Assembly (NCBI GenBank): GCA_021777535.1
Contig: JAJYDN010000002.1
Location: forward strand, 64,949-128,948
DNA from: Pseudomonadota bacterium
GTDB taxonomy: Bacteria > Pseudomonadota > Gammaproteobacteria > Acidiferrobacterales > Acidiferrobacteraceae
Direction of reading: 5' to 3'
Length of the DNA stretch: 64,000 nt
The translations under genes and the position numbers were made by a program. This document shows, in pieces, positions 4,996-10,568 of the stretch. The stretch's first letter is position 1, and every line of letters begins with the position of its first letter. The notes under the pieces are model-generated. The model was given only the letters and a program-made list of their open reading frames with translations, ran no database searches and was not told the DNA's origin.

Positions 4996-6030
4996 TCATG
5001 CAGGCGGCTGGTAGGCGCCACGGCGCGCCATGCCATTGGCCGTGGCGCGTTGGTAGAGCAGTCTCTGTGCTGCGGCAGCCTGGCTTGCGTCGCCTTTCCA
5101 GAGCTCCATGGCTGGCTGCTGGATCGCCCGCGAGAAGGAAAAGGTGAGGGCCCAGGGTGCCTTGTCACGCCAGCGGACGTTCATCGCGTTCAGGCGTACC
5201 GAAGCCATCTCGGCACTTTGGCCTCCCGAAAGAAAAGCGATACCCGGGACCGCCGCAGGTACCGCGCGCAACAGAACCTTTACCGTCGTGTCCGCTACTT
5301 CTTCTACGCCGGCCTGAACGGGGCAGTCCGCTCCCGAGAGCACCATGTTCGGCTTCAGGATCATGCCTTCGAGAAGAACGCGCTGTTCATACAATTGGGC
5401 AAACACGCTGCGCAGTGCAGCCTCCGTGACCTCGGCGCACCGTTCCAGTGTGTGGTCCCCGTCCATGAGCACTTCAGGCTCGACGATGGGCACGAGACCC
5501 GCTTCCTGACACAAGCCGGCGTAGCGCGCAAGCCCGTGGGCGTTGGCTTCGAGGCAGCCGCGGCTCGGGATACCCTTGCCGATCGCAATGACGGCGCGCC
5601 ACTTGGCGAAGCGGGCGCCCATCTGCCGGTATTCGGCCAGCCGCTCGCGCAGCCGGTCCAGCCCTTCGGTGACCTTCTCCCCGGGGTGTGCGGCGAGATC
5701 CTTGGCGCCTGCATCCACCTTGATGCCCGCTATGATGCCGGCCTTTGCAAGCAGCATCAAAAACGCCGTCCCATCGCTTGCCGTCTGGCGGATGGTTTCA
5801 TCATACAAAATGGCGCTACTGATATGTTCGCCCAGGCCGGGTGTGGTGAGGATCAGTTCGCGCCACGCGCGGCGCGCATCCACGGTTTCGGGAATTCCGA
5901 GCTTGGCGAAGCGCCGGTTGGCAGTCGGATTGCTTTCGTCCATGGCGAGTATTCCCTTGCCCGCCTGCATCATCATCCGCGCCGTGCTGGCAAGGTCCTG
6001 CGCCACGGGGGTAAGTTCAAGCAAACCCAT
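4996..6030 (-). CDS. class I fructose-bisphosphate aldolase
   Basis: A 344-residue metal-independent aldolase that cleaves fructose-1,6-bisphosphate to dihydroxyacetone phosphate and glyceraldehyde-3-phosphate, or runs the reaction in reverse in gluconeogenesis and the Calvin cycle. The family signature is clear: GKGILAMDESNPTANRRF near the N-terminus, KWRAVIAIG, and the Schiff-base lysine in GMILKPNMV near residue 227, followed by FLSGGQS. The length matches the eukaryote-like class I enzymes. AGGAGG lies 7 bases before the ATG at 6030. With iPGM, PEP synthase and PDH components elsewhere in the window, it supports active triose and hexose interconversion. The gene appears monocistronic. Confidence 0.93.
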   Translation of the reverse strand: MGLLELTPVAQDLASTARMMMQAGKGILAMDESNPTANRRFAKLGIPETVDARRAWRELILTTPGLGEHISSAILYDETIRQTASDGTAFLMLLAKAGIIAGIKVDAGAKDLAAHPGEKVTEGLDRLRERLAEYRQMGARFAKWRAVIAIGKGIPSRGCLEANAHGLARYAGLCQEAGLVPIVEPEVLMDGDHTLERCAEVTEAALRSVFAQLYEQRVLLEGMILKPNMVLSGADCPVQAGVEEVADTTVKVLLRAVPAAVPGIAFLSGGQSAEMASVRLNAMNVRWRDKAPWALTFSFSRAIQQPAMELWKGDASQAAAAQRLLYQRATANGMARRGAYQPPA

Positions 6031-7388
6031 CTCGCACCTCCTTTTGTTCAGAAGGTCATTTGCATCCTGGCAGGCTTGCTCCAGATCGGCATGCCTGCCG
6101 TTCCGCTCGAGCCATTATACGAGCGCCGCGTGTTTCTGCAAGGGATCCCTTGGTGTCCCGTATGGCGGCCACCCGCTTTTTAGCCTGTTCATTTCGATGG
6201 CAATGGATACGGCACATCCGTGCATCGTTTGCGCATCCGGTGTTGGTATGTCGCGGGTGCGGTATATCGTTTGGGTGCAGGCAAGGTGCCGGAGGGCGGT
6301 AGAGCGGTACGCACGGGAGCGCCCATTCCCTTCTTGCGTACACGGCACGATGCGGTACTCTGGGTGGGTGCGATCGCCGCTAGTGCTGTTGCCATGTGTG
6401 TGGCTATCCGCACCGGAGTTTTCGCGGCCGTTCCACATGCATGGTGGCGGTCGCGAGTTTGCGCGAAGGCCTCGCGGCGTTTCATGGCGCCTCGCAAGGG
6501 CGAACGACCGCGGACTGCGCGGTGTATCGAACTTTGCGGCAGAGATCGCTCATTCCACGCGATGGGGAAGGAATGTGATCTCCATGCAGCTCGACGCCGC
6601 AAGAAGATTGGGCCGCCGGCGCGAGACACAACATCCGGGAAAGGGCCGCTGGCTTGCCCAACCACGGCTGCCCCGGACCCTCTGTTCAGAAACTTGACAC
6701 TCCGCACTTACCGTAAAGCTCAGGAGAAATCATGAGTTACCCCTTTCTCATGCTGTCATGAGCCAACACCTTGTAATTTTCCAGAAACAGTTGGGTACGC
6801 ACCCCCGGAATTTGTGTCGAGCCCGCCTTTACACCATGACCGAGCTGGCTTCGCGCGCCTTTCTGCGCCAGTCGTCGCGTTGAAGTTTTCCTCGTAATAA
6901 CAAGGGCATAGAAAGGCATCTGCGGATTGGCACAAAATTTGATAGGGACGCATGCATAGGGGAACACGGGATGGCGAAAGTGCGTTGCCCATGGCTCCCG
7001 CATGAGGGGATTGGGCGCGCGGGTTATGCGTTTTTGCAGCAGAGGCAGCAGTCCAGGCCGGGATTCCTGGAAGTGATGGCCATTTCGGATGACATGGCAA
7101 TGGCGGAAATCCCTTCCCGGGCCGCCGCGGCAGGGCCGGAGGCCCTGAAGAAACCGGAGCCCGCGCGGTTACCGGCGCTGCGCGAAAGCAGGATCACCGA
7201 CGCCCCTGGGGGTCCTGACCGGCTCGCGAGTATCACCCGGTCCGGCAGGGCCGCCTGCGCGGGCAAATCGCCCCAGCAACGCGTTTCTCAGAGGCTTTCC
7301 ACGGCACGATCTGGCGGGACAAAAGGCCCCGTTCGGGGATAAAAAAACGGGCAGAGGCCCGCATTCCATCGACATAAGGAGACGTCTT
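6031..7388. other. 1.36-kb stretch without a convincing gene
   Basis: Long open frames exist on both strands at 6189-6735, and shorter ones at 6737-7342. None shows a domain, a signal peptide or a good ribosome site, and the overlapping frames have Arg/Pro/His-rich translations typical of GC-rich non-coding DNA. A TTGACA hexamer at 6694 precedes an AGGAG site and a nine-codon ORF (MSYPFLMLS, 6732-6761), which may be the start of a lost gene or a leader. The last 60 bases hold two short hairpins (CCCC/GGGG and CGGGC/GCCCG) and the AAGGAG of the amyloid-repeat gene, so its promoter is probably here. Confidence 0.5.
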
Positions 7389-9560
7389 ATGAGGCAGCTC
7401 AAACTTCAGGCACTAGCGGCCGCCATTGGTGTCGCATTGGCGCCGGCGGCATTGGCAACACCGTTGACCATGCCACCAGCCACTGCAACCGCGACCGTAA
7501 ATAGCACGCAAAAGAGCATGGGCAGTGTTACCGGCGCGGTGAACGAGACGGACAATGCCACGCTGCAGGGCTATGTGCTCGACGGCGCCGCCGGCAACGT
7601 CGGCGTCAACGTGGGCGCTGGTGAGAACAATCTGCAAGCCAACAATGCGGACATCGTGAAGAACGCGTCCGGTGCGGCAGTCGTCGATGCGAGCGCCATG
7701 GTCGATTCCGCGCAGTTGTCCAATGCCTGCGCGTTCAGCGCCGTCGTTTTTGCGCACAATACGGCAGGTGCCGATGGAGACGTGCTCGAAGGTGCGGCAG
7801 GCAACATAGGAGTGAATCTGGCGGCCGGCAACAACAATATGCAGGCCAACAACATGGCGCTCGCGCAGGGCGTTACTCTGGGGAACCTGAACGCCGCGGT
7901 GAAGAGCGTGCAGCAGTCCGGGCCATTCGCCTTCGCTGGCAGCATCGCCAACACGAACACCGCCTCGCTGAGCGACAACGTGCTGGAGGGGGCGAGCGGC
8001 AACGTCGGCGTCAATGTCGATGCGGGACAGCAAAACATGGCCGTGAACAACCTGGCGATGGCGGAAAATACCCTGACGACCCTGGTCACCGCCTCGGCGT
8101 CGAATTCGCAGGCAGCCGAGCTCGTCGGCGCCATCAGCCTCCATGATCACAATACCGCCTCGCTGAGCGACAATGTTCTGTATGCGGCGAGCGGCAACAT
8201 CAATGTGAACGTCGCCGCCGGCGAGCAGAACATGCAGGCCAACCTCCTTTCGTATGCAACGACCGCAAGATCCTCGCTCGCCGATCCGAGCGCCACGAGC
8301 GTGGCTACGCTCAGTAACACCCAGAGCGCCAGCATGTTAAGCGGTGTCGTGAGCGGTTTTTCGAAAAACACGGCCAGCATGAGTGATGACGTCCTGACGG
8401 GCGCAAGCGGCAATATCGGCGCCAATGTGGCCGCCGGCGTGCAGAACATGCAGGCCAACACCTTGTCCGACACCATGAATCCCATCGTGCCGGACGCCGA
8501 TGATGCCAGCTCCATGGCAAGTCTGATGAGCAATCAGGCATCCGGTCCGATGGCCTTTTCGGTTTCGTTCCTCGGTAACAACAACGCAGGCCTGGACGGT
8601 TATGTCCTTGAGAGCGCGCACGGCAATATCGGCGTCAATCTGGCCGCGGGCACCGAGAACCTGCAGGCGAACAACCTGGCATGGGCGGGCAGCCGAACCG
8701 CTTCTTCGGCGGACGCCTACCTGCGTAACGATCAGGGTGCGGGCTCCTATTTCGGCAATAGCGGCCTTATTAGCGGGTCCTTCCATTTAGCCGATTCGAC
8801 CGCTCTCACGAACGATGTCCTGATGGGTGCCGGGGGCAAGATCGGCGTCAACGTGGCAGCCGGCGCCCAGAATGGCCAAGCCAACAATCTGTCCATGGAC
8901 ACCGTTTTCGGGGTTCCAGAGGCCGGCCAGCACGCGAATGGAACGGCCGCCATTGATGACAATCAGGCCGCCAATGGCGCCTTCATATGGCCCTCTATCG
9001 CAGTCGGCGTGCGCGATACCGAAAGCAGCAGTATGCTCGACAACGTGCTACAGAGCGCCTCTGGCCAGATCGGTGTCAACATGGCTTCGGGCATGCAGAA
9101 CCTGCAGGCAAACAATACCGCGATCGCAGACAACGTGAGCAATTCTGGCAGTACGTCCAGTGCAAGCGTGGAAGGGCAACAGCAATCGGGCCCCTGGTCT
9201 GTCGGCATCAATCGGCATTCGACCAATTCGGCCGTGATCGGGGATAACGTCCTGAACGGTGCCGAAGGCGATATCGGTGTCAACATGGCTTCCGGCATGC
9301 AGAACATGCAGAGCAACGATCTGGCGATTGCCTTCGGCGGCCACGGCGGCAGCACCGCTGCGGCGACCACGGTGTCGCAGACGGCGCTCGGTGCCATCAG
9401 CGCAAGCGCGTCGCTGCCAATGCACATGCTGCCTGTCGCGAACACGGCGACCATTTCCGGGAATGCCATGCAGAACGTGTCCGGCAATGTCGATGTGAAC
9501 ATGGCGGCCGGTACTGGCAATCTCCAGCGCAACACGCTGACCATTGCCACTGTCCAGTAA
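7389..9560 (+). CDS. secreted protein of ten FapC-like amyloid repeats
   Basis: A 723-residue protein with an N-terminal signal peptide (cleavage near ALA-TPL, residue 23). The rest is almost entirely ten imperfect repeats of about 65-70 residues. Each has the core GNIGVNxAAGxxNxQANN preceded by an N-T-A-S-L-x-D-x-VL segment, linked by Ala/Ser/Gln-rich spacers. The core matches what I know of the Pseudomonas functional amyloid subunits FapC and FapB, where three such repeats build the fibre; the tenth repeat (QNVSGNVDVNMAAG) is especially close to the last FapC repeat. One Cys is present and the C-terminal CxxC of FapC is absent. No fapA, D, E or F lies nearby. AAGGAG precedes the ATG, and a strong hairpin follows the stop. 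Probable role: extracellular fibre or biofilm matrix protein. The family call is by motif memory, not a search. Confidence 0.75.
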   Translation: MRQLKLQALAAAIGVALAPAALATPLTMPPATATATVNSTQKSMGSVTGAVNETDNATLQGYVLDGAAGNVGVNVGAGENNLQANNADIVKNASGAAVVDASAMVDSAQLSNACAFSAVVFAHNTAGADGDVLEGAAGNIGVNLAAGNNNMQANNMALAQGVTLGNLNAAVKSVQQSGPFAFAGSIANTNTASLSDNVLEGASGNVGVNVDAGQQNMAVNNLAMAENTLTTLVTASASNSQAAELVGAISLHDHNTASLSDNVLYAASGNINVNVAAGEQNMQANLLSYATTARSSLADPSATSVATLSNTQSASMLSGVVSGFSKNTASMSDDVLTGASGNIGANVAAGVQNMQANTLSDTMNPIVPDADDASSMASLMSNQASGPMAFSVSFLGNNNAGLDGYVLESAHGNIGVNLAAGTENLQANNLAWAGSRTASSADAYLRNDQGAGSYFGNSGLISGSFHLADSTALTNDVLMGAGGKIGVNVAAGAQNGQANNLSMDTVFGVPEAGQHANGTAAIDDNQAANGAFIWPSIAVGVRDTESSSMLDNVLQSASGQIGVNMASGMQNLQANNTAIADNVSNSGSTSSASVEGQQQSGPWSVGINRHSTNSAVIGDNVLNGAEGDIGVNMASGMQNMQSNDLAIAFGGHGGSTAAATTVSQTALGAISASASLPMHMLPVANTATISGNAMQNVSGNVDVNMAAGTGNLQRNTLTIATVQ
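7554..9557 (+). repeat. ten protein-level tandem repeats
   Basis: Cores recur with VL-x-G-A-x-G-N/Q/K-I/V-G-V-N at about residues 63, 128, 196, 264, 334, 398, 472, 543, 613 and 688 of the encoded protein. The DNA copies are diverged, so this is old duplication under protein-level selection and not recent slippage. Confidence 0.75.
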
Positions 9561-9568
9561 CGGCGCAA

Positions 9569-9594
9569 GCGAGGGGGCCGAAAGACCCCCTCGC
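9569..9594 (+). terminator. hairpin after the amyloid-repeat gene
   Basis: GCGAGGGGG pairs perfectly with CCCCCTCGC around an 8-base loop, starting 8 bases after the stop codon. It lacks a long T-tract but has the position and stability of an intrinsic terminator. Confidence 0.7.
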
Positions 9595-9731: not shown

Positions 9732-9779
9732 GGCGCGAAGACGCAAAGAGGGCAAGCGCCCTCTTTGCGTCTTCGCGCC
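9732..9779. repeat. 22-bp perfect inverted repeat with a 4-base loop
   Basis: The arms 9732-9753 and 9758-9779 are exact reverse complements around AAGC. Outside the arms, CAAAGG-like bases continue the pairing with a two-base bulge. It sits between two convergent genes (amyloid-repeat protein and DUF3050 protein), so it may be a bidirectional terminator. The arm text (CGAAGACGCAAAGAG) resembles dispersed repeat sequences of other genomes, so it may be a REP/MITE-like element. Confidence 0.85.
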
Positions 9780-9791
9780 TTTGCATGGAGA

Positions 9792-10568
9792 TCAGCCCGC
9801 CTGAAGGACCTTTAGCACACCATCCCAGAAACGGATGCGCGCCTGGATGGCCTGCGCACCGGCCTTCTCGGCCTCGTGCAGCCTGGCCTCGTCGCCGTCG
9901 CAGAGAATCTCCAGCAGTTTCAGCGAGAGCGGGCCGTGGAAGTCTGTGTCGAGGTGGATGTGGCGGTGCAGGTAGAAGTGGAAGATCGGTGCGGCGCTCT
10001 CGGCGATTCCCATGCGCCCGAGAAAGGCGCGGAACATGCCGGGGATCACATGCTCACGCCCCACGGCCAGCGCCGCGGCCACCACGTGAGACTTGCCGGA
10101 GTCGATAAAGTCGAAGGTAGTGGTGGTGAATGCGCGCGAGGGCGACGGCACCCCTTCCCAGCGCAAGGCGGCGCGGATGCCGTCGCCCTTTACCCGTTTC
10201 AGGAAGGCGAGCATGGTGGCCGGGTTGGCGCCCACCTCGCGCATGGCGCCGCAGTAGAGTGCAAAGTGGCTGGCGAACGCCGGCTTGCCGTCGGTCCCGG
10301 GAGGCGCCTCGTCGGACTCCTCCTCCAGTACCAGCGAGTTGATGAACCGGACTACTGCCGGGTCGGGTCCCGGCGTCCACGGGTACTCCGCCGGAGCGAT
10401 TGCGCGCTGCAGGTACTTCACCAGGGACATGAAGTCCCACACCGAGTAGATGTGGTGGGCCATGAAGAGCCGCAGCTGCTCTATGCTGTTCACTGCTCCG
10501 TAGACCGGGTGCTGGTCCAACTGTTGCTGATACTCACGGATCGCCTCGACGTTGAAGGAGCGGCTCAT
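9792..10568 (-). CDS. DUF3050 protein, heme-oxygenase-like fold
   Basis: A 258-residue protein matching the DUF3050 family along its length: HPVYGAVNSIEQLRLFMAHH followed by YSVWDFMSLVKYLQ and PWTPGPDP near the N-terminus. Later conserved parts include LEEESDE, HFALYCGAM, and a C-terminal FYLHRHIHLDTDFHG. The repeated His, Glu and Asp residues on predicted helices are like those of heme-oxygenase-like diiron proteins, so metal binding is plausible but not shown. No signal peptide is visible, so it should be cytoplasmic. It is monocistronic, with only a weak ribosome site before the ATG. Its function is unknown, and no neighbour suggests a pathway. Confidence 0.85.
   Translation of the reverse strand: MSRSFNVEAIREYQQQLDQHPVYGAVNSIEQLRLFMAHHIYSVWDFMSLVKYLQRAIAPAEYPWTPGPDPAVVRFINSLVLEEESDEAPPGTDGKPAFASHFALYCGAMREVGANPATMLAFLKRVKGDGIRAALRWEGVPSPSRAFTTTTFDFIDSGKSHVVAAALAVGREHVIPGMFRAFLGRMGIAESAAPIFHFYLHRHIHLDTDFHGPLSLKLLEILCDGDEARLHEAEKAGAQAIQARIRFWDGVLKVLQAG

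Follow-up and report, generated by a model that had tools for sequence, protein, structure and literature searches.

The stretch of Acidiferrobacteraceae DNA analysed here (64,000 nucleotides, hereafter the window) carries a second, stand-alone fapC gene, fapC2, whose product belongs to the FapC family and contains ten Fap repeats. The same genome holds a complete fap operon with a single fapF on another contig, and a related lone fapC is found at an unrelated site in a genome of a different genus (G010). This second fapC, far from the operon and common to two genera at unrelated sites, is the unusual part of the system. Taking the observations jointly, we consider it fairly probable that FapC2 is an alternative, separately regulated subunit of the Fap fibre, exported in trans by the operon machinery.

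The fapC2 gene and its product

The reading frame of fapC2 runs uninterrupted from ATG to TAA and encodes a protein of 723 amino acids. Its neighbours, both on the reverse strand, encode a class I fructose-bisphosphate aldolase (4996-6030) on one side and, on the other, a DUF3050 protein (9792-10568); the G+C content of fapC2 is slightly low. The gene and its parts are as follows:

7389..9560, + strand: fapC2, stand-alone second fapC, 723 aa, ten imperfect Fap repeats (NF058558, PDB 9u4u, AlphaFold2 superposition)
7389..7457, + strand: Sec signal-peptide-like start, residues 1-23, with a charged n-region, Ala/Leu core and ALA end (by eye; aligned with other FapC starts)
7548..7664, + strand: Fap repeat 1 (motif scan)
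7755..7871, + strand: Fap repeat 2 (motif scan)
7953..8069, + strand: Fap repeat 3, core Gln replaced by Ala (motif scan)
8148..8264, + strand: Fap repeat 4 (motif scan)
8364..8480, + strand: Fap repeat 5 (motif scan)
8577..8693, + strand: Fap repeat 6 (motif scan)
8790..8906, + strand: Fap repeat 7 (motif scan)
9018..9134, + strand: Fap repeat 8 (motif scan)
9222..9338, + strand: Fap repeat 9 (motif scan)
9438..9554, + strand: Fap repeat 10, with a C-terminal NLQRNTLTIA shared with operon FapCs (motif scan, alignment)

The scan used the minimal Fap repeat, G-x4-N-x3-G-x6-N (PMC3792158), and finds exactly the ten repeats that an earlier note on this DNA had read directly, at residues 69, 138, 204, 269, 341, 412, 483, 559, 627, and 699; when FapC2 was shuffled 2000 times the mean was 0.116 and the maximum three. 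The spacing of 65-76 aa corresponds to a 39-aa repeat and a linker of 26-37 aa, and within the conserved core of G, N, and Q the Gln is retained in nine of the ten. The core proposed earlier, GNIGVNxAAGxxNxQANN, holds as a consensus but not as an exact motif, since repeats 7, 8, and 9 read GGKIGVN, GQIGVN, and GDIGVN and the Gln of repeat 3 is Ala. At the DNA level the repeats have 61-72% similarity to the reference copy; a tandem duplication at this level is rejected, as Tandem Repeats Finder reports no array in fapC2. Together this indicates old, diverged repeats. Between fapC2 and the DUF3050 gene lies a perfect 22-base inverted repeat with a 4-base loop (9732-9779), a single site in the genome with one two-mismatch match in a relative.

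Judged by sequence, the membership of FapC2 in the FapC family is firm. The NCBIfam FapC model NF058558 matches with 213.2 bits (E 7.2e-63; cut-off 195), which bears out the FapC-like protein first proposed and disposes of the other outcome then envisaged, that of no significant Fap match. The NCBIfam FapB model scores 68.5 bits, far under its cut-off of 190. A Pfam profile search gives no meaningful match, and curlin families are absent at E up to 10 in both Pfam and NCBIfam. A sequence search of the PDB returns two FapC entries and no others (9u4u at E 4e-13), and FapC2 aligns over its full length with 10 relatives, sharing the C-terminal QRNTL.

The fold of FapC2 is predicted, with support from modelling, to be the Greek-key beta-solenoid of FapC with one layer per repeat. 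The AlphaFold2 model, built from an 11-row alignment of related sequences, has a mean pLDDT of 79.9, a pTM of 0.85, and a strand pattern that recurs along its length. With VIA-align, 150 of 150 residues of 9u4u_A, the FapC of Pseudomonas sp. UK4, superpose at 1.7 A (Z 11.1) on residues 38-225 of the model; the two share the repeat motif and the Greek-key core, but the Pseudomonas protein has three repeats instead of ten. Foldseek also returns FapC 9u4u as its top row (probability 0.99), at an E of only 0.08. Curli CsgA, likewise a multi-repeat solenoid amyloid, reaches Z 14.2 at an rmsd of 8.5 A, but its repeat sequence is different and the profile match of FapC2 is to FapC; unrelated solenoids score Z 7-12. 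Because of the Foldseek E-value, the scores of CsgA and other solenoids, and the 11-row alignment, the long stack is to be read as a solenoid prediction.

Repeat number and the fap operon of the same genome

Ten repeats are typical of this lineage. Among 15 FapCs counted, ten repeats occur in 12, nine in one, and three and four in two outgroups, and all 10 operon-type FapCs counted in the Acidiferrobacteraceae have nine or ten. The CxxC motif, reported as conserved in FapC (PMC6173800), is missing from FapC2 and from every one of the 15 FapCs compared, and is therefore not diagnostic here. The earlier note was right about the ten repeats and the lack of a CxxC tail, but both, taken there as distinctive, are also found in the operon FapC of this genome and its relatives, and more than three repeats are already in print (PMC3792158, PMC12392863). 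Three repeats were counted in 1031 of 1094 operon FapCs (94.2%), and models with 4, 6, 8, 10, and 16 repeats are given as well (PMC12392863); three is a usual but not obligatory feature of FapC, and FapC2 has ten instead. The same kind of expansion is described for Acidithiobacillus (4-8 repeats) and Vibrio (16), where FapB has two repeats or one, but these proteins are described within fap systems, and the one lone protein reported there, from A. ferrivorans, has two repeats and is likely an operon remnant (PMC3792158). In G317 (L085 and L086), from another gammaproteobacterial family, a ten-repeat FapC lies beside fapB, fapD, and fapE, and elsewhere a three-repeat FapC has FapB-like and FapD-like neighbours.

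The closest parallels are the operon FapCs of the Acidiferrobacteraceae, that of this genome among them (724-776 aa, nine or ten repeats, no CxxC, the same C-terminal end), which are 44-46% identical to FapC2 over the whole length. Their genes are located between fapB and fapD, in operons with a sigma54-like element ahead of fapB; fapC2, by contrast, has no fap neighbours and has a 5' region and a hairpin of its own. In this genome (2.30 Mb in 76 contigs, 99.6% complete) contig C76 carries fapB-C-D-E-F in a row, followed by a sigma54 activator with a VpsR domain, and fapC2 is indeed outside the fap operon, as the earlier note had it. A tblastn search with the genome's own FapB-F finds no homologue of fapB, fapD, fapE, or fapF in the 64 kb window, where weak FapB matches fall only on fapC2 and its 3' edge; the absence of fapD/E/F near the gene had been noticed before. 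The operon FapB has two strict repeats, FapC has 776 aa and ten repeats and scores 264 against the NCBIfam cut-off of 195, and FapD is a C39 peptidase. The remaining scores are under their cut-offs (FapB 68/190, FapD 197/330, FapE 89/250, FapF 318/700), and the identities of these four are given by the best family of each and by the gene order, which agree. The operon fapF lies within 0.5 kb of fapE, vs. several kb in related operons (L048:12069-17373), about 5 kb in G010. In G003 the operon fapC is divided between two frames (634 + 162 aa; L033:10568-12984), owing either to a true frameshift or to a fault in the assembly.

Secretion of FapC is reported to depend on FapD, with FapF as the pore (PMC5557850), so that a lone FapC would most simply use the operon machinery; the genome has one FapF-like gene. 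The homologues of fapD and fapF for which a genome search had been suggested are both in the C76 operon, and the distant or different secretion route proposed earlier is rejected as unnecessary because fapB-F are present. With a lineage-typical repeat number and the export machinery at hand, FapC2 is less strange than first proposed.

Putative transcription signals and the second lone copy

The sequences around fapC2 indicate that it is probably its own, monocistronic transcription unit:

7293..7388, + strand: conserved stretch 5' of fapC2; AAGGAG at 7376-7381 read by eye as its ribosome-binding site (identity with the other lone copy)
7302..7315, + strand: degenerate element CGGCACGATCTGGC, resembling a sigma54 site but short by one base, of doubtful function (pattern scan)
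9569..9594, + strand: hairpin directly after the fapC2 stop, 9-bp stem, terminator-like (fold z -2.14)

Over the 96 bases 5' of fapC2, 73 of 102 alignment columns (72%) agree with the corresponding region of the other lone copy, against a mean of 50% and a maximum of 58% in shuffles, and identity over the next 100 bases outward is 54%. The hairpin of fapC2 has no T run; that of the other lone copy (L029; fold z -4.16) is followed by TTTTTT. Since a hairpin lies directly 3' of both, each lone fapC looks monocistronic.

A sigma54-like element, TGGCAYRGNTCTTGW, precedes the longest fapB frame or stands at its start in nine of ten distinct family operons (L005:4196-10222 and nine related operons) and is absent in G006. 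It fits the sigma54/VpsR-domain regulator whose gene adjoins fapF in this genome, and suggests sigma54 control of Fap in the Acidiferrobacteraceae. The pattern was derived from the same sequences that were scanned and is hence descriptive: across 15 sources it occurs at 10 of the 11 operon loci of the family (L030 and L049 being the same genome), in neither of the two G317 clusters, in neither lone-copy source, and at one other site (L033:3764). The best sigma54 consensus site in eight operon upstream regions clearly beats shuffles (<=18/300) in G000, G013, G007, and G012, but not in the other four. In the window there is no TGGCAYRGNTCTTGW-type element, only the one-base-short look-alike at 7302-7315, and the other lone copy is also without one, its counterpart of CGGCACGATCTGGC being TGGCATAGCCTGGC at L029:9909. 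A sigma54 promoter for fapC2 was rejected: its candidate element is degenerate, and the best consensus site of the window is matched by 226 of 300 shuffles. These signals are consistent with fapC2 being regulated separately from the operon.

FapC was searched for in 60 relatives, including 18 genomes of Acidiferrobacteraceae. It is present in 11 of these 18, and a second full-length FapC occurs in two, this genome and G010, so that the lone gene is dispensable. The two lone FapCs, from different genera, both have ten repeats and are 78% identical as proteins. Comparison by blastn of window 1-24000 with the 22 kb around the G010 lone copy reveals similarity only at 7293-9575 and no shared neighbours; these limits are not transfer ends, as diverged non-coding DNA would be lost anyway. 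Both copies are intact and under purifying selection, with a dN/dS of about 0.17-0.21 by NG86 and YN00 (NG86: dN 0.134, dS 0.776, ratio about 0.17). Between the same two genomes the operon FapCs are 50% identical over aligned codons (dN 0.468, dS 0.944 by NG86), and dS is 1.45 for FapD, 1.55 for FapF, and about 1.03 for IleRS. The lone pair has diverged about as much as the operon FapCs of G010 and G007, which both belong to the other genus (79% identity, dN 0.133), and identity in repeats and linkers is alike in the two pairs (82%/74% in the lone pair, 84%/73% in the operon pair).

The closeness of the lone pair suggests that the gene was transferred horizontally once the genera had separated, or that the lone gene is under much stronger constraint. 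Fourfold-site identity in the lone pair (196/334, all counts being rebuilt from rounded fractions) exceeds that in IleRS (210/412, p 0.039) and in FapD and FapF together (93/217, p 0.0003) but does not differ from that in the operon FapC (109/209, p 0.16); this gives only moderate support for, not proof of, a transfer. In the FapC tree the lone pair forms one clade (100/100), placed beside the operon FapC of this genome at only 83/85 and on long branches, so that the duplication looks old; alignment A1 and the tree exclude the two-frame FapC of G003, and G014 is in the tree only. The best match of a FapC2 repeat has the same index in 3 of 10 repeats against the operon FapCs of G000, G317, and G010, in 6 of 10 against G013, and in 10 of 10 only against the other lone copy, so that a position-by-position homology with operon FapCs is weak. 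The neighbouring aldolase, present in 5 of 18 family genomes, is 88% identical to its G010 counterpart (dS 0.67), and exchange between the lineages may therefore exceed fapC2. Viral or plasmid cargo was considered for fapC2 and rejected: viral contigs contain no relative, and plasmids yield one weak, partial Aeromonas match on a 4.9 Mb record.

FapC2 as a probable alternative subunit of the Fap fibre

As an alternative major subunit of the Fap functional-amyloid fibre, FapC2 would be made from its own transcription unit, cross the inner membrane by Sec, and stay unfolded in the periplasm until its export in trans through the FapF pore with FapD and FapE from the C76 operon. Outside the cell its repeats would stack into ten cross-beta layers and may co-assemble with, cap, or replace the ten-repeat operon FapC, which would change the biofilm fibre.

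FapC2 might also build a fibre or surface layer distinct from the operon fibre, one that nucleates itself and has its own putative ligand or mineral specificity, although it leaves by the same pore; we regard this as unlikely, yet it deserves consideration. Its linkers are 33% identical to those of the operon FapC of the same genome vs. 74% to those of the other lone copy, which indicates that the two types of FapC have kept separate linker surfaces. Self-nucleation by expanded repeats, a hypothesis put forward in PMC3792158, does not separate the two readings, since the operon FapC is likewise a ten-repeat protein and FapB has two. It seems improbable that fapC2 is a relic, left behind by duplication or transfer, whose product has ceased to be exported or to serve a function: the lone copy is confined to 2 of 18 family genomes and has no adjoining fap genes, but the frame is intact in both genomes, dN/dS is low (about 0.17-0.21), the 5' region and the downstream hairpin are kept at both copies, and ten of ten repeat cores are retained. 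Convergent resemblance to FapC by a solenoid adhesin from a different family is scarcely credible, for although other solenoids including CsgA reach Z 7-14 on the model, the FapC profile scores 213 bits, above its cut-off, Pfam has no other meaningful match, the protein is alignable over its full length with operon FapCs, and the Pfam, NCBIfam, and VIA results together do not favour a beta-helix adhesin.

Surveys of Fap systems counted FapB and FapC only within less than 5 kb of other fap genes (PMC12392863, PMC12822426), so lone FapC genes would have been missed by design. Three genomes with two fap clusters are reported, and horizontal transfer is called rare in Fap (PMC12392863). A literature search by titles and abstract openings returned nothing on a stand-alone FapC paralogue. 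More tentatively, and with the odds in our view against it, fapC2 could be a horizontally exchanged monocistronic cassette, through which hosts with a resident Fap export machine would gain interchangeable FapCs that differ in their linkers, and could thereby change or combine the surfaces of their fibres.

FapC2 offers a ten-layer building block, likely from an acid environment, for work on amyloid materials. If FapC2 is truly a second FapC under separate control, a single export machine is able to supply several kinds of fibre. Should fapC2 prove to be an exchanged cassette, this would break with the published view of Fap as one fixed operon with rare horizontal transfer.
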